Source: Anaerolineaceae bacterium
Lineage (GTDB): Bacteria > Chloroflexota > Anaerolineae > Aggregatilineales > Phototrophicaceae
Length of the DNA stretch: 64,000 nucleotides
Assembly: GCA_002699585.1 (NCBI GenBank)
Contig: PABP01000009.1
Location: 607,750-671,749, forward strand
Reading direction: 5' to 3'
Both the position numbers and the translations under genes were made by a program. This document shows, piece after piece, positions 15,784 through 25,856 of the stretch (positions are counted from its first letter, which is position 1; the number at the start of each line of letters is the position of its first letter). The notes under the pieces were generated by a model that saw nothing but the letters and a program-made list of their open reading frames with translations, did not search any database and was not told where the DNA came from.

Positions 15784-16287
15784 TTAAACCTGCTCTGTAA
15801 TCGACCAATCGCGCTGTTGGAGCATGTTGACCAGTCCATCTGCGTCGAGGATGGCCCGCACAGTCGGCGACAATGTGGGGATGGGGTAGGCTTGACCATT
15901 CGCCACGATGACATGCTCATCGAGATCAATTTCGATGTGATCACCCGTTTGCAGCCGATCAGCTAGCTCTGGGCAAACGATGGGGTGTACGCCCTGGTTG
16001 ATGCAATTGCGGAAGTACAATCCACTAAATGACACCGCAATAATCGTGCGAACCCCTGCGTATTTCAGCGCGGTGACGGCCTGCTCACGGCTGCTACCAC
16101 AGCCCCAATTACGGCCCGCTACGATCACGTCCCCAGGCTGAACCTGGCTGGCGAAATTGTCGTCCAGGTCTTGCAGGGCCACGCTCGACATTTTGTCGGG
16201 GTCTTTGAGCGTGTACGTATATTTCCCTGGGAAGATGACATCGGTATTGACGTGATCGCCGTAAACCCATACGCGGTGGCTGCTCAT
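15784..16287 (-). CDS. lysU: Homoaconitase small subunit (LeuD/LysU family)
   Basis: The swivel domain of a two-subunit hydro-lyase, 167 aa, with [10 protein letters not shown] near the N-terminus and [14 protein letters not shown] (about 58-71), the signature contacting the substrate carboxylate. It pairs with the large subunit whose stop it overlaps (ATGA). Together they would turn homocitrate into homoisocitrate. The loop that tells homoaconitase from isopropylmalate isomerase (usually Tyr-Leu-Arg/Val-X) reads Tyr-Thr-Tyr-Thr here, so the assignment rests on the operon. It is the last gene of the lysine unit; no clear terminator follows. Confidence 0.85.
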
Positions 16288-17573
16288 AAGATGGCTCCTG
16301 GTGCATTAATCGCATGTTGAATGAGGATGCTATTGGGGTCAGCGATGGCCCCGGCGATGGCGCTGGCCGCGACGACGGCAGGGCTGGCCAGATAGATATC
16401 GGCTTGGGCCGTACCCATGCGCCCGCGGAAGTTTCGGTTTCCAGTGCTGATGGTGGCTTCATCGGGTGCGGGGATGCCCATGTGGTTGCCCATGCACGGG
16501 CCACATCCCGGTGTGTTGATCGTTGCCCCGGCTTCGATGAGTGTCTGCAAAACGCCAGTTCGGGTCGCACGCAATAAGACTTCGCTGCTGGCGGGGATGA
16601 CAATCGTGCGCACCGCTACCCGCTGCCCACTCAGGACCTGGGCGGCTGCCGCCAAATCTTCATAACGGCCATTGGTACATGTGCCGATGAACGCCTGCTG
16701 GATCGGTCGCCCGATAACATCCGACAGGTTGTGCACGTTATCCGGGCTATGCGGAATAGCGACTTGCGGCTCTAAAGTGCTCAGGTCTATCGTATAGTCA
16801 GCAGCATAAATGGCATCGTCGTCAGGATACAGTGGCGTATAATCACGCTGCCGATTGCGCTCCAGATAGTCAAAAATGGCCTGGTCAGGTGGTAAATAGG
16901 CGTTCATCGCGCCAAATTCGGCCATCATGTTGGGTAGCACAGCCCGTTGGTCCAATGTCAGGCTGCTGATGCCATCCCCGGCAAATTCCACCGAACGATA
17001 CTGGCCGCCATCTGCGCCCCATTGGCCCAGGATATACAGCGCCAGGTCTTTGCTGGTGACCCCCGGTCGCAGTTGGCCCGTCAGGGTGATGCGCATTGCT
17101 TCTGGGACCTGTAGCCACAATTCGCCTGTCGCCCATAGTGCGGCCATTTCCGTGCGACCGACGCCCATGCCGAACGCGCCCAACCAGCCATAATGTGTGC
17201 TGTGGCTGTCGGCCCCCAGGATGACCTCACCCGGCAAAATTAGCGCTTCTTCACTGATGACCTGATGGCAAATCCCACGCCCGACTTCAAAGAAATTGGC
17301 AACACCCTGTTCCTGCACCCACTCCCGGATTTCAGCATGGTTCTGGGCGTGCTGCGTGGTCGGTGCAGGGGCCGCATGATCCAGCGTGAAAGCGACGCGG
17401 TCGGGTCGTGCGATGCGCTGGGCACCCGTCTGCATGAAGATGCGCCGGATGGCTGCGCTGTTATCATGGCTAAAAATCAGATCGGGCTGGACGTCCAGTA
17501 CATCCCCGGCACGGGCACTCTCGACGTGGGCCGCGCGTGCCAGGGCTTTTTCAACAAAAGTGTATCCACTCAT
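16284..17573 (-). CDS. lysT: Homoaconitase large subunit (LeuC/LysT family)
   Basis: Binds the 4Fe-4S cluster that activates homocitrate/homoaconitate. The three cluster cysteines are visible: one in [13 protein letters not shown] (about residue 300) and two in [11 protein letters not shown] (about 355-365). [10 protein letters not shown] (about 120) and the [16 protein letters not shown] stretch are family features. Its 429 aa is the length of the short LeuC/HacA type. The immediate neighbour upstream is homocitrate synthase, with ATGA overlaps on both sides, which is why homoaconitase is preferred over leucine-pathway isomerase. Confidence 0.9.
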
Positions 17574-18769
17574 AAGACATTGCTCGTTTCGACGTTATTT
17601 GTTTCAATAGACGAGTCGATGGGGTTGCAGACATGGTCCTGGCTAGCCTGATAGAGCAGGTCGTCAATCGCCGCCAGATTGAGCGCTTCGTCATCCGCCT
17701 GCGATTTAATATTGGCTGTGATCTGGCGCAGGGTAGCGTCATCCAGGTCCAGGCCCAGATCCTGAGCACGGCTGCGAATCGTGTTCCAACCCGTCAGATG
17801 ATGGCCAATAGCGATTTCGCGGGCCAGCCCAAAATCAGCCGGATTGAGTGCTTCATAGGTTTCCGGGTCGGCCAAGACGGCTTTGGCATGGATACCAGCT
17901 TTATGAATGAACGCGCTCGTGCCAGTGATGTAATTATTGAAAGGAATCTCTAGCTGGCAGATGTCGGCGATCAGGGCGTCGATTTGCGGCAAAAGGGCCA
18001 GATTGTAGCGGCGCACGTACTCCCGATTGAGGGTGTACAGCCGCGCGATCAGGCCACCTAGCGGCGTAATGCCGTTGCGCTCCCCGATGCCTAACACGGT
18101 TGTATCGACGTGTGTCGCGCCGGCCTCCAGGGCTGCTGCCGCGTTGGCAATCGCGCAGCCGCTGTCATTATGCCCATGAAATTCGATGTCTAGCCCGGTC
18201 ATGCGCACCAACTGGTTGACCAACCGCCAAACCTGGCTCGGCATGGCTACACCGACGGTATCAGCAATCCCCAGCCGATTAACCAGACCCAGGTTGGCAA
18301 TCGCCAGGTAGACGCGCATCAGGTCAGCTTCATTGCTCCTGAAGCTGTCCTCGGTGCTGAACCGCAGGATCACATCCGGGTTCTGCGAGCGAATGAAGGT
18401 CATGACATCTTCGGCAAGGTCGATGATCTGGCGAATGTCTTTGCCATGACTGTGCGTCATCAACTGCGGCGAGGTTCCAATTACTACGTCGATGCCATGC
18501 ACGCCCGTATCCAGGGCGCGCTGGGCATCTTCCCGTGTGCAGCGGATATGCGTCAGCACCCGCAGATTGAGATTCTCTGCCAGTACCGCCCGAATATCGG
18601 CTTCGCTGCGTGGTGAGGCGCATGGTGACGTCATTTCCAGCATTTCCACACCGAACTGATCGAGCAGGGTGGCAATTTCGATTTTTTGCGCGGTATTAAA
18701 GGTTGCAGTGCTGAATTGCTCACCTTCGCGCAGGGTACTTTCAATAATATGGAAGTCGTGTAAAGGCAT
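17570..18769 (-). CDS. lysS: Homocitrate synthase
   Basis: Condenses 2-oxoglutarate and acetyl-CoA, the committed step of the alpha-aminoadipate route. The DRE-TIM barrel opens with [12 protein letters not shown] (catalytic Arg-Glu). [20 protein letters not shown] (about 196-215) holds the metal-binding His-X-His, and [21 protein letters not shown] follows. The C-terminal [13 protein letters not shown] is typical of homocitrate rather than isopropylmalate synthases; there is no LeuA-type regulatory domain (399 aa), so feedback control would act through the barrel or at transcription. It lies between lysK and the homoaconitase genes. Confidence 0.93.
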
Positions 18770-18778
18770 ATCAGGCTC

Positions 18779-19843
18779 CTAAAGGCGTTCGAGGACGGCG
18801 GTCAGCACGTCAATCGCACGTAAATATTCGTCCAGGTCGATGTGCTCATCCGGCGTATGGTCGAGCGATGAGTCCCCAGGCCCGTATGCCAGGATGGGGC
18901 AGTTCCAGTGCGGCCCAACGATGTTCATATCGCTGGTCCCGGTCTTATGAACAAAACGGGGTGTGCCGCCATTAGCGCGGATAGCTCCGCGGAAAGCACG
19001 CGCTAGCAGGCTGTCACGCTCCCCCAGGAAGGCGACTTCGTGGCCATAAGCGCGGGTGCTTGCTTGTTCATCTGCTAGGTCGGCAGCAATCGTATGCGGA
19101 TCGGCATTCGGTGGCAGCCGGAACCCGACTGTCAGTTCACACCAGCCATAAGCGCCATCCACGCCACTGTTGATGGCCTGCAAAGTGGCATCCAACTGGC
19201 CGAAGATGCGTTCTTCGTCCTGGTTGAATTGCGCAACGTATTCTTGAATGTGCTGCCAGTAAGCGAATCCGCGTTCCGGTGCGCTGGCGGCTTCCCCGGC
19301 ACTGTGGGCCAGTGGCCCATCCCAGCGCCAGTCGATCAGCAAGCGGCCTTTGTAGCCCAGCGTCATGCGATCCCAGTTGGAAGGCTCTCCGATGATGCAC
19401 ATTTCTGGCTGATACTGTGTAGCGGCGAAGCGTGCCCCTTTGCTGCTGGCGGCTTCTTCTTCCACCGCGCCGATGACGACCACCCGTACATCCTCTGACA
19501 GCGTAGCGCGGCCCGTAGCGGCGGCGAAGGTCGCCAATGGCCCCTTGGCATCGACGCTGCCGCGGCCATAGAGCAGGCGGTCTTCAATGCGCACAGGTGG
19601 ATTGCCACTGAAGGTGTCGATATGGCCCAACAGCACGACCTCGCGCGGTCCGCTGCCCACGACGCCGACAGCGTTTCCGGCTTCATCGACGAAGGCCTCG
19701 TCATAGCCGTTCGCCCGCATCCATTCAACCAGCAGATGACTGGCATCTGCTTCATGTGTAGATGGGCTAGCTGCTGCGACCAGATCATGCAGCAGATTTT
19801 CAGCGATCTCGTCCGTGATACTGTGTGTTGTCGTCGGCATCAT
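18779..19843 (-). CDS. lysK: LysW-lysine/ornithine hydrolase
   Basis: M20-family metallopeptidase that releases lysine from the gamma-carboxyl of the LysW carrier protein. Motifs: [15 protein letters not shown] with metal His and Asp (about residues 72-85), [14 protein letters not shown] (about 94-107) with the bridging Asp, [12 protein letters not shown] (about 130) with catalytic Glu-Glu, and [17 protein letters not shown]. Its 354 aa matches LysK. The start overlaps the stop of lysJ by four bases. In related organisms LysK may also serve ornithine synthesis. Confidence 0.93.
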
Positions 19844-21027
19844 GCGTTCTGCTCCTGCAAAATCGCCTCGATGCTATCGACGATGGTTAGCAGTTCTGCC
19901 TGGGTGATGGTCAGTGGTGGCAGCAGTCGCAGTACAGTTTTACCAGCAGGTAGCGCCAGAATGCCGCGCTCTTGTAGCGCTTGCAGGATGGGCGTCACCC
20001 GTACCCGTAGATCAATGCCGATCATCAGGCCCAGGCCGCGAATTTCACGAACGCCCGGTAAATCGCGGCTGTTGAGTTCGTTCAGCAACCACGTGCCCAG
20101 TTCAGCACTGCGGGCAGGTAGATTGTCTTCGCGTAGGTTGGTGATGGCTGCGATAGCCGCCGCACTCGCCAGCGGATTGCCGCCGAAGGTGCTGCCGTGT
20201 GAGCCTTTGGGCAGGGTGCCCAGCGATCCACGCCATGCGACTGCACCCATGGGGACACCGCCCGCGATGCCTTTGCCCAGTGCGACGACATCTGGCACGA
20301 TGCCTGCATGTTCAAATGCGAACCAGCGCCCGGTACGGCCAAACCCGGTTTGGATTTCATCGACGATCAGCAGCGCGCCGCGTTCATCACACAATTGGCG
20401 CAAGCCCTGCAAATATTCGACATCCGCTGGATGCACGCCACCTTCACCTTGCACCGCTTCCACGACCACAGCGGCAGTGTCTTCGTTGATAGCTTCTGCT
20501 GCCCGTTCCAGGTTGTTATAAGGAAAATGGTTGACGGTTGGCTGCCATGCTTCAAATGCTTCCCGGTACTCTTTGTTCCACGTCAGCGACAGCGCCCCCA
20601 GCGTCCGGCCATGAAAGCCGCGCATGGTAGCGACGATGCCCGTGCGGTTGGTCAGCAAGCGGGCGACTTTGAGTGCGCCTTCGATGGCTTCTGCGCCGCT
20701 GTTGCACAAAAAGTAACGGTCGAGGTCATTCGGCAGGACGCTGTGGAGCTGCTCATACAGCGCCGACCGTTGATCGTTATAAAAAATCTCCGGGCAGGTG
20801 ATCAGCGTCTGTGCTTGCTCGCTGATAGCGATCACGACTGCTGGGTGGCAGTGGCCGAGCAGGGCGACTCCCTGACCACTGGTGGCATCCAGATAGCTGT
20901 TGCCGTCGCTGTCCCAGACGGTGCTGCCGCTGCCACGCACGATGCTGACAGGGCGTTTGGGGTACGCACCGGATGTATGCGCGTCTTCCCGCTCAATGCT
21001 GCTGAGGGTGGTTTGAATGTCGATCAT
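19840..21027 (-). CDS. lysJ: LysW-aminoadipate semialdehyde / LysW-ornithine aminotransferase
   Basis: Class III PLP enzyme, 395 aa, that transaminates LysW-aminoadipate semialdehyde to LysW-lysine. The cofactor site is ALLIVDEIQTGFGRTGRWFA, and the Schiff-base Lys is in VVALGKGIAGGVPMGAV. MRGFHGRTLGALSLTWN is typical of the ArgD/LysJ group. It is flanked by lysZ and lysK with four-base overlaps. Confidence 0.93.
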   Translation of the reverse strand: MIDIQTTLSSIEREDAHTSGAYPKRPVSIVRGSGSTVWDSDGNSYLDATSGQGVALLGHCHPAVVIAISEQAQTLITCPEIFYNDQRSALYEQLHSVLPNDLDRYFLCNSGAEAIEGALKVARLLTNRTGIVATMRGFHGRTLGALSLTWNKEYREAFEAWQPTVNHFPYNNLERAAEAINEDTAAVVVEAVQGEGGVHPADVEYLQGLRQLCDERGALLIVDEIQTGFGRTGRWFAFEHAGIVPDVVALGKGIAGGVPMGAVAWRGSLGTLPKGSHGSTFGGNPLASAAAIAAITNLREDNLPARSAELGTWLLNELNSRDLPGVREIRGLGLMIGIDLRVRVTPILQALQERGILALPAGKTVLRLLPPLTITQAELLTIVDSIEAILQEQNA

Positions 21028-21872
21028 GCTCTGAATACCGTTCCTGCACCGTTGAGTGCGTTGGTTACTGGGTTGCTGGTGCGGCCATCACCGATAATGA
21101 CGCGCTCGACGTTGCCATTAAGGGCTTCTTGTGCGCCGAGTACTTTGCGTTTCATGCGGCCCTGGGCGTAATCCATGACACGCTCGATCTGGTTGCCCTG
21201 CACATCCGCGATGACCGTGCTGGCGTCAGTATGGTCGCGCATCAGGCCGGGGACGTTGCTCAGGATGACCAGATCGCTGGCACCAAGTTCGGCGGCGACG
21301 GCGGCTGCGGCCCGGTCGCCATCAATATTGAGCAGGCCATCAGCGCTATCTGCCAGCGGCGGGACCACGGCCACGCGGCCTACCGTCAGCGCCTCCCAGA
21401 TCGAACTGGCCTGCACGCTGTCGATACTCCCGCTGTAGTCATCGCGCACCACGCGGATGCGTCCATTGACCACCGCGCGGATAGCGGCTTTGCGCGTGCC
21501 CTGTACGGGGACCGTTTCCGTTAGCCCGACGGCGTAGACCCCATGCTGCCGCAGTTCGGACACAATTTGTCGATTGACCGCTTGTGCTGCTTCCACGAAC
21601 AGGTCACGGGTTGCAGGCGGCGTATAGCGTGAGCTGTGGCCGCTGGGGGAGGTCAGCGTTTCAATAGGCAGGCCGCGCTCGGCGCTCATTCGGGCCATCA
21701 TGCCACTGACGCCGTGGACGATCACCAATGGGCGCGTCAGGGCGATTTCGGCCAGGTCAGCGCAGGCGGCTGCCAGGTCCAGGCCTTCGCCACCGCCTAG
21801 CTTCACCACCAGAATATGATCGGTGCGTGTGCTTGTTTGATCGTCTGTTGCTATGTCGGTTAGGCGGTTCAT
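21024..21872 (-). CDS. lysZ: LysW-aminoadipate kinase
   Basis: Amino acid kinase family, 282 aa; phosphorylates the aminoadipate side-chain carboxyl while it is attached to LysW. VVKLGGGEGLDLAAA at the N-terminus is the phosphate loop of the LysZ type, VIVHGVSGMMARMS follows, and LNIDGDRAAAAVAAELGASD is the C-terminal nucleotide site. It is preceded by a 157-bp gap holding three hairpins, the only real gap in the lysine operon, so its expression may differ from that of lysWXY. Confidence 0.93.
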   Translation of the reverse strand: MNRLTDIATDDQTSTRTDHILVVKLGGGEGLDLAAACADLAEIALTRPLVIVHGVSGMMARMSAERGLPIETLTSPSGHSSRYTPPATRDLFVEAAQAVNRQIVSELRQHGVYAVGLTETVPVQGTRKAAIRAVVNGRIRVVRDDYSGSIDSVQASSIWEALTVGRVAVVPPLADSADGLLNIDGDRAAAAVAAELGASDLVILSNVPGLMRDHTDASTVIADVQGNQIERVMDYAQGRMKRKVLGAQEALNGNVERVIIGDGRTSNPVTNALNGAGTVFRA

Positions 21873-21949
21873 GTTGTAATCCTCTTTAGTTAGGCTTATT
21901 GGCCAGGATTTACTTTTGCGTATCCCGAAGAAGGTTCAACCTTGATCCT

Positions 21950-22028
21950 CTGCTTTCGGCGCTTGCGCCGAAAACACGGGGTCCAGGGGAGAAATCCTCT
22001 GGCGGGGTCGTAGGGGCAGCGCCCCTAC
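21950..22028. repeat. Triple-hairpin REP-like element inside the lysine operon
   Basis: Three adjacent inverted repeats: TTTCGGCG-CTTG-CGCCGAAA (21954-21973), CCAGGGGA-GAAA-TCCTCTGG (21983-22002, one G-T) and GTAGGGGC-AGC-GCCCCTAC (22010-22028). The last ends just before the lysY stop codon at 22030-22032. The compact GC-rich palindromes and the phrase around GTAGGGGCAGCGCCCCTAC resemble dispersed intergenic repeats of other Chloroflexota (recollection, not searched). Read in the operon, the hairpins lie between lysY and lysZ. Confidence 0.75.
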
Positions 22029-22029
22029 A

Positions 22030-23055
22030 CTATGGGTATAGGCCGGGGAACGACAGTCCGGCGCATTCGTCGAAGTTATGCATCAGGTTGAGGCACTGCA
22101 CGGCGCTCCCGGCGGCCCCTTTACCCAGATTATCGAGCGCGGCGATCAGCACCAGATGGCGACCATCGTCGTCCATCTCAAAGCCGATGTCGCAATAATT
22201 GGTCCCGGCGACGATGCGTGGCTCCGGCAGGCGATGCAGTCCGTTACGGTCGCGCACCAGCCGCACGAAGGGTTCCTCGTTGTAAGCGGCCCGATACAGC
22301 CGCCAGATGTCTTTTTCGCTCATTTCCTGGTTGAGATCGACATGTGCCAGCAAATGTATGCCGCGTATCATCTCGATAGCTGTCACAGAAAATCGAACGG
22401 CCACTTCCTGGCCGAGCATCATCTGGACCTCGGCCATATGACGGTGGCCCGTTGCTTTGTAAGTCCGTACCGCGCCGCTGCGCACCGGGTGATGACTGCC
22501 TGCATTGGCTGTGTTACCGCCTTCCGACGATCCCACTTTGAGTTCCGCGCTGACGCGCTCCAGCAGGCCCGCATTCGCCAGCGGATATAGCGCCAGGTTG
22601 AGCGTGGTCGCGTTGCAACCGACGCCGCTGGCATAATTCGCACCGCGTAGGGCATCTCGGTTCAGTTCCGGCAAGCCATAGACAAAGCGATCAATCCACT
22701 CCGGCGCGGGATGGGCTTCACCATACCAACGCTGGTAAGCCTCGGTATCGCGCAGTCGGAAATCGGCTGACAGGTCAATCAGACGCGGGGCCAACGCCGC
22801 ATAATGGTCGATATTGCGGGCTGTTGTCCGGTGGGGCAGCGCCAAAAACAGCACATCACAGGCTTCCAGCGCATCTGGGTGAATAAACTGCAAACGCGAT
22901 ACCCCGCGCATATTCGGATGCACCGTATGCACATAACGTCCAGCGTGCTCCCGGCTGGTGATCTGCGTGACCTCCACCTCCGGGTGGAAGTGCAGCAGAC
23001 GCAATAATTCGCCGCCGGTGTAGCCGCTGCCGCCAACAATCCCAGCCCGGATCAT
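22030..23055 (-). CDS. lysY: LysW-aminoadipyl phosphate reductase
   Basis: An ArgC-family NADPH-dependent dehydrogenase, 341 aa, reducing LysW-aminoadipyl phosphate to the semialdehyde. It has the NADP loop GIVGGSGYTGGELLRLL, the catalytic Cys in ASGVGCNATTLNL (about 150), and the LysY-type stretch GSSEGGNTANAGSHHPVRSG with GHRHMAEV, which differs from ArgC and suits binding of a protein-bound substrate. The ATG overlaps the lysX stop by four bases. Confidence 0.94.
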   Translation of the reverse strand: MIRAGIVGGSGYTGGELLRLLHFHPEVEVTQITSREHAGRYVHTVHPNMRGVSRLQFIHPDALEACDVLFLALPHRTTARNIDHYAALAPRLIDLSADFRLRDTEAYQRWYGEAHPAPEWIDRFVYGLPELNRDALRGANYASGVGCNATTLNLALYPLANAGLLERVSAELKVGSSEGGNTANAGSHHPVRSGAVRTYKATGHRHMAEVQMMLGQEVAVRFSVTAIEMIRGIHLLAHVDLNQEMSEKDIWRLYRAAYNEEPFVRLVRDRNGLHRLPEPRIVAGTNYCDIGFEMDDDGRHLVLIAALDNLGKGAAGSAVQCLNLMHNFDECAGLSFPGLYP

Positions 23056-23930
23056 GCTACGACCTCCGCCTGCGCCAGGGCATAAGCGACGACTTCTGCG
23101 GCGATGTCGACGCCTGTCGGTGCGCTGCTGTTACGGAACTCCATCGTGTGGTTGATCTCGTTGATGAGCAGTTCGCCGTTGCTGTCTTCCAGCACATCAA
23201 TCGCCAGGATACCGCCACCGACCGCTGCCGCTGCCCGCTGGCAAATCTCATCCAGCTCCGGTGTGACCGGACAATTGCTGGCGCTGCCGCCGCGTGCTGT
23301 ATTGGTGATCCAGTGCTCGCTGTTGCGGTAAATCGCGCAGATGGTGCGGCCACCGATCACAAAGGCGCGGATGTCCCGACCCGGTTTGTTGACATAAGAC
23401 TGCACATAATACGTGTGGTGGTTGTAGTCGCCCAAGGTTTGGCGATGCTCGATGATGGCTTCGGCGCTGTCACTGTCGTTGACACGGGCTAGCAAGCGCC
23501 CCCAGGACCCGGTGGTGGGTTTGAGGACTGCCGGATAGCCGACGCGCTCAATCGCACCCATTGCGGATTCCGGCGTGAAGGCCACGCGCGTTTCCGGCTG
23601 ATTGACGCCTGCGGTAGCCAGCGCCAGGGTCGTTTGCAGTTTGTCGCTACAAATGGACGCTGTTTCATACGTGTTGATCGTGCGGATGCCCCAGCGATTG
23701 AGAATCGCCAGCAGGTACAGTCCGCGGGACGTACTCACACAGCGTTCCAGCACCAGGTCATACTCTGACCAGGGGCGACCGGATGGCGCATGCTGGTCCG
23801 GCCCAGCCACCAGGTCGATGTTAATATCGCGATCCAGGATCACATCGGGTTCGACGCCTGCTTCGGCAAAAGCTGTCAGCAGCAATTTTTCTTCAGCGCG
23901 GATATGCGTTACCAGGAATGCGATCTGCAT
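23052..23930 (-). CDS. lysX: Alpha-aminoadipate-LysW ligase
   Basis: ATP-grasp ligase of 292 aa that joins the amino group of alpha-aminoadipate to the C-terminal Glu of LysW. ATP-grasp features: PAVLKPTTGSWGRLLARV (Lys and flexible loop), IRAFVIGGRTICAIYR, and the metal site INEINHTMEFRN near the C-terminus, the LysX/ArgX family ending. The ATG at 23930 shares one base with the lysW stop (TAATG); a TTG four codons further upstream is possible but has less to support it. The related ArgX uses glutamate, and dual LysX enzymes exist, so a role in arginine synthesis is not excluded. Confidence 0.93.
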   Translation of the reverse strand: MQIAFLVTHIRAEEKLLLTAFAEAGVEPDVILDRDINIDLVAGPDQHAPSGRPWSEYDLVLERCVSTSRGLYLLAILNRWGIRTINTYETASICSDKLQTTLALATAGVNQPETRVAFTPESAMGAIERVGYPAVLKPTTGSWGRLLARVNDSDSAEAIIEHRQTLGDYNHHTYYVQSYVNKPGRDIRAFVIGGRTICAIYRNSEHWITNTARGGSASNCPVTPELDEICQRAAAAVGGGILAIDVLEDSNGELLINEINHTMEFRNSSAPTGVDIAAEVVAYALAQAEVVA

Positions 23931-24103
23931 TATTCGCCCCAATCTTCTTCAACCTCAGGTGCGAGGTCGACGGTCAGTGGGTTCAGGCTCAGGACTTCTA
24001 GCTCGACGCCGCAATCGGGGCAGGCCAGCAGTTCGTTTTCCATGACATCGGTTGGGATATTGATGTCAGCATCACACTCTACGCAGGTTACGTTATGGTT
24101 CAT
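23930..24103 (-). CDS. lysW: Amino-group carrier protein LysW
   Basis: A 57-aa acidic carrier to which aminoadipate is attached during lysine synthesis. Two Cys pairs (Cys7/Cys10 and Cys28/Cys31) form the zinc ribbon, and the C-terminus is the family tail EDWGE; the last Glu takes the substrate. ATG at 24103 follows the AGAGAGGAAC ribosome-binding region; the stop overlaps lysX. It is the first structural gene of the operon and lies about 50 bases after the second leader terminator, so everything downstream depends on read-through of that site. Confidence 0.97.
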   Translation of the reverse strand: MNHNVTCVECDADINIPTDVMENELLACPDCGVELEVLSLNPLTVDLAPEVEEDWGE

Positions 24104-24151: not shown

Positions 24152-24194
24152 CAAAATAAAAAGCCGCCGTCTCAGGTCAATCTGGACGGCGGCT
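24152..24194 (-). terminator. Intrinsic terminator 2 of the lysine leader
   Basis: A perfect 10-bp stem AGCCGCCGTC/GACGGCGGCT with a 13-base loop, followed on the minus strand by TTTTTATTTT. It lies between leader peptide 2 and lysW, with no other gene in front of it to terminate, so it fits an attenuator. UCCAGA in its 5' arm and loop (24186-24181) is complementary to UCUGGA in the last codons of leader 2 (24229-24224); with one flanking G-U the match is 7 bp. Confidence 0.88.
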
Positions 24195-24220
24195 GGGTAC
24201 ACGCTTTTAGCGCAGCACAA

Positions 24221-24289
24221 CTATCCAGAATGAGCGTCCGGCTTCTTTTCCTTCTTCTGTTTCTTGGTTTCGTTGATGATGTGCTGCAT
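24221..24289 (-). CDS. Lysine-rich leader peptide 2 (22 aa)
   Basis: ATG CAG CAC ... TAG encodes MQHIINETKKQKKEKKPDAHSG. Six of 22 residues are Lys, as three pairs at 9-10, 12-13 and 15-16. GGAG sits six bases before the ATG. An intrinsic terminator begins 27 bases after the stop. Inferred logic: a ribosome short of Lys-tRNA stalls at the Lys pairs, codons 17-22 stay free and can pair with the terminator's 5' arm; a ribosome that reaches the stop covers them and the terminator forms. Leader-peptide control of lysine genes is, to my knowledge, known in Thermus thermophilus. Confidence 0.78.
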   Translation of the reverse strand: MQHIINETKKQKKEKKPDAHSG

Positions 24290-24321
24290 GATGTTCTCCA
24301 ACGTCGATCAAAATTTGACAA

Positions 24322-24346
24322 CAAAAAACCCCGCCTGTGGGCGGGT
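24322..24346 (-). terminator. Intrinsic terminator 1 of the lysine leader
   Basis: CCCGCC-TGTG-GGCGGG stem followed on the minus strand by GTTTTTTG. It lies between leader peptides 1 and 2. The 5' arm CGCCCAC (24343-24337) is exactly complementary to GUGGGCG (24392-24386), five bases after the leader 1 stop, giving a 7-bp GC-rich antiterminator that would exclude the terminator. Confidence 0.88.
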
Positions 24347-24396
24347 CTGCTTGTTTGTCTGTGCTCGGCTAGCGAGAAAGCAAAACGCCCACTGGG

Positions 24397-24441
24397 TTAG
24401 CGGTTCGTCTTCTTTGCCTTCTTGCTGATGATGATAAGCAT
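24397..24441 (-). CDS. Lysine-rich leader peptide 1 (14 aa)
   Basis: ATG CTT ATC ATC ATC AGC AAG AAG GCA AAG AAG ACG AAC CGC TAA encodes MLIIISKKAKKTNR, with four Lys in five consecutive codons. AGAAGG lies eight bases before the ATG. The Lys codons (AGAAGGCAAAG, 24422-24412) can pair over 11 bp (two G-U) with UUUUGCUUUCU (24385-24375), just behind the antiterminator strand. So the classical four-segment attenuator can be drawn: segment 1 within the Lys codons, 2 after the stop, 3 and 4 the terminator arms. Confidence 0.75.
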   Translation of the reverse strand: MLIIISKKAKKTNR

Positions 24442-24492
24442 CGATAATGCCTTCTTCGCCGAAAATGTTTGCTGAAATTTGACTTCGCGTTC

Positions 24493-24521
24493 AGTTTAAC
24501 GTGTGTCTAGGAACGATACAA
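24493..24521 (-). promoter_or_regulatory. Possible promoter of the lysine operon
   Basis: On the minus strand TTGTAT (24521-24516), 17 bases, TAAACT (24498-24493). It is a moderate match only. A start near 24486 would leave about 45 bases before leader 1. Transcription could also enter from the MFS gene upstream. Confidence 0.35.
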
Positions 24522-24572: not shown

Positions 24573-25856
24573 TTAGGCCCCGCTGGGTTCAAGTGCAGCC
24601 GGGGATGACTCCTGCGTTTCCAATCGTTTGACGATCCAAATCCAGACCACCAGCGGCACAATGGCAACCACGCCCGTCCCTAAAATGATCCAATGTAACT
24701 GCTCCAGCGGTACTTGATCGACCAGCCAGCCATGCACCAATGTGCTGATCACGGTCGCAATCTGGAAGCCGGCGAAATCCAGTGCAAACATGCGCCCTAG
24801 TTTGGCATCCGGCGCGGTTTTCTGGATGATGATAACGCTGTAAGTCCAGTTGATCGACCCACCCAGGCCCCGGATGAACACGGCGAATATCACCATGAAG
24901 AAGACGCTCGACACACCCCACAGCAGCCAAGCACCAACCATCGACGCAAAGCCAATGATGATCAGGCGGCGCATCTGCTGGACGCTGCCATCATTGAAGC
25001 GGTTGGTCAGCATCGGCCCGATGAAGGCTCCCAGGCCGAAGGCACTGTACAGCAAACTGAGCGAAACCTCGCCGTCGTTGCCCATAATGAAGATTTGCGT
25101 GGCCACAATCGTAACCAACGTATCGACATTGCCCACGCTGCCGCCGAACTTGACGAACAGTGCCGCTAGCATCTGCGGGGTACGCAGCACGTAACGGATG
25201 CCCTCCATAAAGGAAGTATCTTCTTCCTCTTTAGGCTCAATTTCCAGCTCTTTGCGCAGTTTACGGGCTAATTCGGGCTGATAGTCAATCCAGAAGATCA
25301 ATCCAGCGGCAATAGCAAAAGTCAATGCATCGGCGATCAGGGCCGCTTGAGTACCGAAGATATAGGCGAACACGCCACCTAAAACTGCACCGAGCGCCAG
25401 CATGACCGACCATGTCACGCTAACCAGCGTATTGGCTTCGACCAGATCATCGGGGTCGGTTAGCGCAGGAATAATGGCTGATTGTCCCGGCTCAAAAATC
25501 GCCGACAGCGTAAACTGGGCAATTGTCACGGCGTAGATGATCCACAGGTGTTCGGGTCCCGTCACTAGTAAAAATAGTGGCACGATCAAAGCCCGCAGCA
25601 AATTGCTCCAGATCAGTAGTTGCTTGCGGTTGAAGCGATCCACCAGTACCCCGGCGAAAGGGCTGACCAGCAGCGGCGGCAAGAAGCGCGCCATCAAATA
25701 CAGGCTGACAGCCAGACCGGAGCCTTGTGTATAGGCCGCCACAAGCGTTGAAAGCACGACGGTGCTAAACCAATCGCCCGTCAGGCTGATGACCTGTGAT
25801 AACCATAATTTTGTGAATTCAGGGTTGCGTCTAATCAACTGCCAATAACGTATCAT
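24573..25856 (-). CDS. MFS transporter
   Basis: A 427-aa, 12-helix major facilitator of the MFS_3/EntS-like group. Between helices 2 and 3 is FAGVLVDRFNRKQLLIW, the family A-motif (Gly-x-x-x-Asp-Arg-x-x-Arg). A central acidic cytoplasmic loop (KELEIEPKEEEDTSF, about 205) separates the two halves. It is probably an exporter of small hydrophobic compounds; the substrate cannot be read. It lies upstream of the lysine leader on the same strand, and no terminator with a T-run separates them, so read-through into the leader is possible. Confidence 0.85.
   Translation of the reverse strand: MIRYWQLIRRNPEFTKLWLSQVISLTGDWFSTVVLSTLVAAYTQGSGLAVSLYLMARFLPPLLVSPFAGVLVDRFNRKQLLIWSNLLRALIVPLFLLVTGPEHLWIIYAVTIAQFTLSAIFEPGQSAIIPALTDPDDLVEANTLVSVTWSVMLALGAVLGGVFAYIFGTQAALIADALTFAIAAGLIFWIDYQPELARKLRKELEIEPKEEEDTSFMEGIRYVLRTPQMLAALFVKFGGSVGNVDTLVTIVATQIFIMGNDGEVSLSLLYSAFGLGAFIGPMLTNRFNDGSVQQMRRLIIIGFASMVGAWLLWGVSSVFFMVIFAVFIRGLGGSINWTYSVIIIQKTAPDAKLGRMFALDFAGFQIATVISTLVHGWLVDQVPLEQLHWIILGTGVVAIVPLVVWIWIVKRLETQESSPAALEPSGA

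Follow-up and report, generated by a model that had tools for sequence, protein, structure and literature searches.

The leader region of the lysine operon in the window, which is the whole 64,000-nucleotide stretch of Anaerolineaceae bacterium DNA that was analyzed, very probably contains two ribosome-mediated transcription attenuators in series on one leader RNA, both predicted to sense the charging of Lys-tRNA. Lys-rich leaders, terminators, cognate antiterminator pairing, and ribosome geometry, all conserved at both positions, make this, as a preliminary description of the DNA had proposed, the best reading of the region. Three hallmarks of such an attenuator are present, at the sequence level, in each unit: a leader open reading frame (ORF) with a ribosome-binding site and codons for the amino acid that the operon produces, an intrinsic terminator between the leader and the first structural gene (one per leader), and an antiterminator that shares a strand with the terminator.

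Under the proposed mechanism, a ribosome translating either leader while lysine is ample would reach the stop codon and cover region 2, the antiterminator strand; region 3, the 5' arm of the terminator, would then pair with the 3' arm, and transcription would end. When charged Lys-tRNA is scarce, the ribosome would instead stall on the KK codons, at least 12 nt before the stop, leaving region 2 free to capture region 3 ahead of the synthesis of the 3' arm, and RNA polymerase would pass. To reach lysW, the polymerase would have to clear terminator 1 and then terminator 2, with a fresh ribosome on leader 2. If both leaders are translated, respond to lysine, and act serially in this manner, the readthrough of the two units should multiply, yielding low leak and the steeper response expected of an AND-type gate.

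The two minigenes, two ribosome-binding sites, and two intrinsic terminators were found again where the preliminary description had placed them, on the basis of sequence, terminator calls, and folding (Table 1), and so were the competing pairings in both units, each of 7 bp when counted as a contiguous helix. Compared with dinucleotide shuffles, folding is more stable both in the stretch that runs from leader 1 through terminator 1 (z of −3.3) and in the one from the last part of leader 2 through terminator 2 (z of −3.6). The assignment of lysW and eight more lysine genes downstream was likewise borne out by NCBIfam names: LysW, LysX, an ArgC-type reductase (LysY), [LysW]-aminoadipate kinase, a LysJ/ArgD-type transaminase, [LysW]-lysine hydrolase, homocitrate synthase, and two homoaconitase-type subunits. 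Each of the nine genes matches some NCBIfam model above its cut-off, and the specific LysJ and HacB models score below theirs. The window alone is not enough to establish the earlier statement that there is no other gene for the terminators to serve, since a same-strand MFS-type gene ends 228 nt before terminator 1; conservation is the stronger argument that the terminators belong to the leaders.

Table 1. Features of the leader region and lysine operon in the window (positions count from the first nucleotide of the window)
Feature	Position	Strand	Basis or remark
Leader region and lysine operon	24441-24153, then lysW and eight lysine genes	minus	Sequence, ORF and terminator calls
MFS-type transporter gene, immediately 5' of the leader region	24573-25856	minus	Best NCBIfam match below its cut-off
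Candidate promoter TTGTAT, 17 nt, TAAACT	24493..24521	minus	By eye; weak, 3/6 and 4/6
Shine-Dalgarno-like GAAGAAGG of leader 1	24450..24457	minus	Sequence
Leader 1 ORF MLIIISKKAKKTNR	24397..24441	minus	Four Lys codons, all AAG; KKAKK-type leader here in many relatives
Stop-codon hairpin (CCGCT/AGTGG), candidate 1:2 pause hairpin of unit 1	24389..24403	minus	Folding
Unit 1 region 2 (GTGGGCG), antiterminator strand right behind the stop codon	24386..24392	minus	Pairs with 24337-24343; whole duplex −19.7 kcal/mol
Intrinsic terminator 1 (CCCGCC CACA GGCGGG, then T-run)	24320..24345	minus	−12.4 kcal/mol
Shine-Dalgarno GGAG of leader 2	24296..24299	minus	Sequence
Leader 2 ORF MQHIINETKKQKKEKKPDAHSG	24221..24289	minus	Lys codons: 5 AAG, 1 AAA
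Unit 2 region 2 (TCTGGAT), lying over the final codons and the stop of leader 2	24223..24229	minus	Pairs with 24181-24187; whole duplex −19.8 kcal/mol
Intrinsic terminator 2 (stem-loop 24162-24194, then TTTTATTTT)	24153..24194	minus	−24.2 kcal/mol; covarying stem
lysW, amino-group carrier protein, zero Lys	23930..24103	minus	NCBIfam TIGR01206 above cut-off
lysX, lysY(argC), lysZ, lysJ, lysK, homocitrate synthase, hacA, hacB	15784..23930	minus	NCBIfam; proposed regulated operon

Over 104 loci, TANNNT words peak 41 to 50 nt upstream of the first leader start (62 words; 42 in the next bin and 5 to 31 in the others), and the TAAACT word of the candidate promoter in the window, which starts 57 nt upstream of leader 1, lies outside this peak. 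Neither a T-box nor a lysine riboswitch was found in the window at the Rfam gathering threshold, the only Rfam match being a tRNA, and no Rfam match was obtained in the five further lysW loci scanned (L022, L188, L190, L194, and L200). Elsewhere in the genome of origin (6.7 Mb in 42 contigs), KKNKK words are found 63 times versus 86 times for a reversed control pattern, raw counts that leave room for a further unit elsewhere.

To gauge conservation, LysW was searched in 154 genomes of the order; 120 matched at an E value of 1e-8, and the upstream regions of all 120 were taken, including those of L032 and L187, which have just 234 and 128 nt of upstream sequence. Units were called when K + 0.4 R reached at least 3 within 7 residues and a terminator followed 8 to 75 nt after the stop. 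At least one Lys-rich leader with a terminator is present in 110 of the 120 loci: two units in 53, one in 57, none in 10, and three in 0. Among 600 base-shuffled copies, 2 had one unit and 0 had two. At least one unit occurs in some genome of 40 of the 43 genera, and two occur in some genome of 28. By family, double units are found in 36/86 loci of f1, 9/11 of f3, 7/7 of f8, 1/4 of f2, 0/11 of f7, and 0/1 of f6. Of the genomes searched, a single one, G001, belongs to the genus of the window's genome; it has the same pair of leaders, MLVAISKKAKKTNH and MQHLFIDTKKQKKAKKPDRRPG, with a terminator after each.

A stricter rule (4 K in 7 residues, a terminator 10 to 75 nt past the stop, and 600 nt before lysW) returned at least one unit in 100/120 loci and two in 41/120, and in five dinucleotide-shuffled sets (600 copies) it returned one unit in 1 copy and two in 0; a scan with the same Lys threshold overlooked units in L002, L007, L035, and L156 that can be seen by eye. 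Demanding a Shine-Dalgarno-like word, with other thresholds also changed, brought the doubles down to 33 of 118 loci. The final caller misassigns unit 2 of L012 (in a shifted frame) and unit 1 of L035 and misses unit 2 of L024; these were left as called. When other residues were put in the place of Lys, Arg was the runner-up, with 14 order loci versus 100 for Lys under the stricter rule and 32 versus 110 under a relaxed rule (3 in 6 residues). In the leaders as a whole, Lys accounts for 676 of 2,868 codons (23.6%) and Arg for 170.

Several loci depart from the common pattern. In L012, some 96 to 180 nt upstream of lysW, leader 2 is frame-shifted relative to its relatives and the TCTGGATAG word and the terminator are kept, which could reflect a real change or an assembly error. 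In family f7 (L187-L188, L190-L196, L199, and L149), one unit was called in 4 of 11 lysW loci and none in 7, the sequence of L187 being incomplete upstream; the f7 loci L195, L196, and L199 have poorer Lys leaders and a different terminator word.

The pairing of each leader end with its own terminator was examined in 163 units. On average, a segment of at most 38 nt surrounding the leader stop binds the 5' part of the cognate terminator at −17.1 kcal/mol, compared with −12.05 (standard deviation [SD], 0.23) for permuted partners and −10.75 (SD, 0.23) kcal/mol for a shuffled segment. The preference persists when partners are permuted within a class: −18.06 versus −13.20 (SD, 0.43) for unit 1, −18.12 versus −14.55 (SD, 0.40) for unit 2, and −15.34 versus −12.28 (SD, 0.32) for single units. 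Cognate pairing is stronger than the median noncognate pairing in 47/53 first units, 43/53 second units, and 46/57 singles, with a minority showing no preference. Within one locus (53 loci), cross-pairing of the two units is weaker, at −12.0 and −10.4, versus −18.1 for both cognate pairings.

The words involved change together. In unit 1 they covary by genus: GTGGGCG/CGCCCAC in g1, GTCCGGGC/GCCCGGAC in g12 and g23, TCAGGCG/CGCCTGA in g14, and CGAGTGGTTT/AAGCCACTCG in g46. In unit 2, the pairs include TCTGGAT/GTCCAGA, GTGTTCCGG/CCGGAACAC, and GGCGATTA/TAATCGCC, and the antiterminator pairing accounts for the recurrent Ser-Gly-stop ending of leader 2, which as RNA is the word UCUGGAUAG. Two alignments were used to quantify this pattern. 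The first, of 26 of the 53 first units (one per genus for 25 genera, with g1 represented twice), has 70.2% of antiterminator cells paired and a covariation score of 0.325, versus at most 0.142 when the helix is slid; RNAalifold returned just a 4-pair helix of the antiterminator type from it, because the rows of family f3 sit in another register, which also explains many of the unpaired cells. The second, of 12 of the 53 second units picked by the TCTGG word (Ser-Gly ends 11 of these leaders), has 95.4% of antiterminator cells paired and a covariation score of 0.342, versus at most 0.061 when slid; both sides change in just 3 of the 9 pairs, a result matched by 22 of 500 shuffles. The terminator that shares a strand with this antiterminator has 96.3% of cells paired and a covariation score of 0.404 and is the structure that RNAalifold returned from the second alignment.

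The placement of region 2 relative to the leader stop is also conserved and differs between the units. Counted from the first base of the stop, region 2 starts at +2 to +5 in 37/53 first units and at −10 to −5 in 36 of the 52 second units in which a helix was found. The last Lys codon of the cluster lies at a median of 15 nt (unit 1) and 21 nt (unit 2) before the stop. With a ribosome footprint assumed to extend about 12 nt past the first base of the A-site codon, this geometry fits a model for both units in which a ribosome at the stop would hide region 2 and one at the Lys codons would free it. In folding of the nascent RNA that still lacks the 3' arm, the probability that the 5' arm is paired upstream rises, from a ribosome at the stop to one at the last Lys codon, from 0.26 to 0.76 in unit 1, from 0.27 to 0.67 in unit 2, and from 0.30 to 0.69 in singles. 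Real sequences exceed shuffled spacers in 49/53, 42/53, and 52/57 cases, respectively. The shuffled spacers themselves pair at 0.45, 0.53, and 0.49 with the ribosome at the last Lys codon; therefore, the nascent effect is specific in part only.

At equilibrium, with the ribosome moved from the stop to the last Lys codon, the probability of the terminator drops in unit 1 (0.94 to 0.53) and in singles (0.95 to 0.58) and changes little in unit 2 (0.98 to 0.89); for the two units of the window, the corresponding values are 0.97 to 0.00 (unit 1) and 0.99 to 0.97 (unit 2). A probability of 0.5 is crossed in 24/53 first units, 3/53 second units, and 20/57 singles. Equilibrium folding was accordingly rejected as proof of switching by unit 2, which stays terminated with the ribosome on the Lys codons, and unit 2 must therefore act kinetically, if at all, by forming its antiterminator ahead of transcription through the 3' arm. 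A hairpin over the stop codon followed by a T-run (strict rule) is found in 21/53 first units (0.5 expected) and 31/57 singles (0.7 expected), compared with 2/53 second units (0.3 expected). In L004, L007, L013, and L131, the stop-codon hairpin of unit 1 has its own T-run and resembles a further small terminator. The median terminator energy is −15.4 for unit 1 and −24.9 for unit 2. Taken together, these differences suggest that unit 1, with region 2 mostly just past the stop and often a stop-codon hairpin that might pause the polymerase, would be a weaker first gate and that unit 2, with region 2 mostly over the last codons and the stop, would be a stronger second gate.

The same differences leave room for graded control by two thresholds, in which the weaker unit 1 would open at mild lysine shortage and the stronger unit 2 at severe shortage. 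The unequal terminator medians and the different placement of region 2 speak for such an arrangement, which is a variant of the serial explanation, compatible with it, and is rated as a possibility on the unlikely side. A further alternative, considered improbable, has a single unit regulating the operon, with the other reduced to a relic or to a fixed terminator that is weakly regulated and does no more than lower expression. Many relatives manage with a single unit, as in 33 of the 34 genomes of genus g17, and unit 2 shows neither an equilibrium switch nor, with the two exceptions counted above, a stop-codon hairpin. However, a relic would be expected to lose its complementarity and its Lys richness, and the complementarity of regions 2 and 3 is kept and covaries in both classes, with both leaders Lys-rich in 28 genera, so relic status is disfavored for either unit.

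In the window, the two leaders together have 9 AAG codons and 1 AAA, versus 30 AAA and 3 AAG in the operon (lysW included), whose nine genes have 12.1 Lys per 1,000 codons; 25 other ORFs of at least 250 residues, picked as controls, have 28.5 Lys per 1,000, of which 47% are AAG. The comparison was extended to the window plus 20 further genomes, mostly chosen for long contigs, of which G051 was dropped because it lacked control ORFs, leaving 20 genomes; in three of them 6 of the 9 lysine genes were recovered, and in one, 8 of the 9. The lysine genes use the main Lys codon of the leaders less than the control ORFs do in 17 of the 20 genomes, significantly so in 11 (sign test, P = 0.0026; stratified z, −10.0), in a set in which genomes are related (four of one genus and two each of three others) and some controls are small (544 codons in G020). 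The three exceptions, G033, G045, and G108, are each nonsignificant, and as a rank correlation the contrast is also nonsignificant (Spearman, 21 genomes, −0.28; P = 0.21). The lysine genes have fewer Lys codons per 1,000 than the controls in 18 of 20 genomes, the exceptions being G004 and G033.

The direction of the contrast is not fixed. The window's genus combines AAG sensors with AAA-biased enzymes, and the arrangement is reversed in genus g31 and in G100; in six genomes (G049, G054, G043, G059, G004, and G100), AAA is the main Lys codon of the leaders and the enzymes show a shift toward AAG, significant in four of the six. A pattern of this kind in attenuator codons is expected under selective charging of isoacceptors (Elf and Ehrenberg 2005; PMC1183508). 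The gene content for tRNA-Lys was considered as the cause of the reversal and found no support, given that the CTT gene is also present in the AAA-leader genomes G049, G054, G043, G059, G100, and G004, in a comparison that rests mainly on CTT genes. The genome of the window has both tRNA-Lys genes, CTT and TTT. A fuller reading, held tentatively and at slightly less than even chances, is that the conserved same-signal tandem comprises two nonidentical functional modules tuned to different depths of Lys-tRNA uncharging, with sensor and enzymes written in opposite Lys codons and the isoacceptor swapped in evolution as leaders and enzymes switched codons together.

Codon choice also bears on the idea that the positively charged, Lys-rich nascent peptide stalls the ribosome in the exit tunnel, such that the device senses translation generally rather than lysine. 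With nearly a quarter of leader codons encoding Lys, and positive residues reported to slow ribosomes in the portion available of PMC3595205, stalling by charge is conceivable; however, Arg is no substitute for Lys in the leaders, the controlled operon makes lysine, and synonymous choice appears to matter, as the enzymes use the leaders' codon less, which charge cannot explain, so that this alternative is regarded as very improbable. Finally, that the terminators end the upstream MFS-type gene or insulate the operon, the Lys ORFs being there by chance, can practically be dismissed despite the position of that gene on the same strand, since shuffles yield almost no ORF-terminator pairs and never two, the cognate pairing at stop codons is conserved, and the conservation of the leaders speaks against it. 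Dual control by arginine occurs in LysW systems elsewhere. It was set aside for this operon on the grounds that the leaders are Lys-rich and not Arg-rich.

The comparison of regions upstream of lysW in other Chloroflexota, proposed in the preliminary description as a check on the tandem, came out in its favor within the order, whereas beyond the order two units are rare. In a class-wide sample of 296 genomes, 197 have LysW, 177 of them outside the order. The 53 outside loci, from 35 families, comprise 13 returned by search and 40 picked by hand from among the matches listed, one to four per family, omitting some matching families (for example, f25, f30, f34, f36, f52, and f57) and retaining L319, L328, and L335, whose upstream sequences measure 79, 230, and 128 nt. 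Of these 53 loci, 3 have two units, 15 have one, and 35 have none. Among 80 loci identified by name, 11 duplicate order loci and were left out; of the remaining 69, taken irrespective of order and overlapping in part with the class set of 53, 12 have two units, including records titled Ardenticatena, Ardenticatenaceae, Ardenticatenia, and Caldilineae. The 41 units of these loci show cognate pairing of −17.6 versus −14.65 (SD, 0.50) when permuted, with weak pairing in unit 2 of L061 (−6.5), unit 1 of L055 (−8.9), and both units of L088 (about −10). Double units thus belong chiefly to this order and turn up only sporadically beyond it. Records titled as other phyla, L098 (Phycisphaeraceae), L100 (Gemmatimonadetes), and L108 (Myxococcota), also have a Lys-rich leader and a terminator before lysW, and L108 has two.

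Other amino acid operons of the same genomes are organized differently. A T-box precedes trpE in 9 of 9 loci scanned (L276-L284, of which L281 is from the window's own genome), an incomplete tenth locus being excluded. Therefore, the lineage does use tRNA-sensing RNAs, and lysine appears to be handled by ribosome-mediated units instead. Upstream of ilvB, no terminator was found within about 600 nt in 10 of 10 loci, and no Rfam match was obtained in the 6 of 10 that were scanned.

The usual description of an amino acid operon has one attenuator, and a natural, widely conserved pair for the same amino acid allows the benefit of a serial arrangement, whether in leak, steepness, or two thresholds, to be asked about directly. 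The conserved pair suggests a double lock on lysine production, and the opposite Lys codons in leaders and enzymes, in both directions across genera, constitute a natural test of the selective-charging theory. Among the literature matches listed, most subscription papers being outside the coverage, no amino acid attenuator was reported that is double and reads one signal twice, and no lysine leader was reported in Chloroflexota. PMC8632094 describes a cysS leader, and the accessible part of a study of leader genes that includes Chloroflexi (PMC4833913) contains nothing on lysine.

The lysine units resemble attenuators of the trp/his type in having a leader peptide rich in the product amino acid, a strand shared by antiterminator and terminator, and, in many first units, a hairpin over the leader end. 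Unlike these, two complete units here serve one amino acid and one operon serially, and region 2 of unit 2 lies mostly within the last codons and the stop. The lysine cluster of Thermus thermophilus is reportedly controlled by leader peptide attenuation with one leader; it would share with the present system the amino acid, the LysW-type pathway, and the leader peptide and would differ in the number of leaders. Tandem T-boxes are serial attenuators on one leader. They and tandem riboswitches, such as those of metE (mentioned in the available part of PMC3641672), are serial too, but in them the RNA itself recognizes tRNA or ligand and no leader peptide takes part. The nearest precedent among the literature matches listed is the leader of the Salmonella mgtCBR operon, which contains tandem attenuators, mgtM and mgtP, that answer ATP and proline (Lee and Groisman 2012; PMC3641672); in the portions available, its authors consider it a singular example, a single attenuator being normal for nutrient biosynthesis genes, and note that, unlike the metE tandem riboswitches, it lacks two intrinsic-terminator sites. 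Like the mgtCBR leader as described there, the lysine leader has two short ORFs in tandem, and each ORF comes with alternative structures of its own. Unlike mgtCBR, both ORFs here are Lys-rich and each has its own intrinsic terminator, and their sequences point to one signal rather than two different ones.
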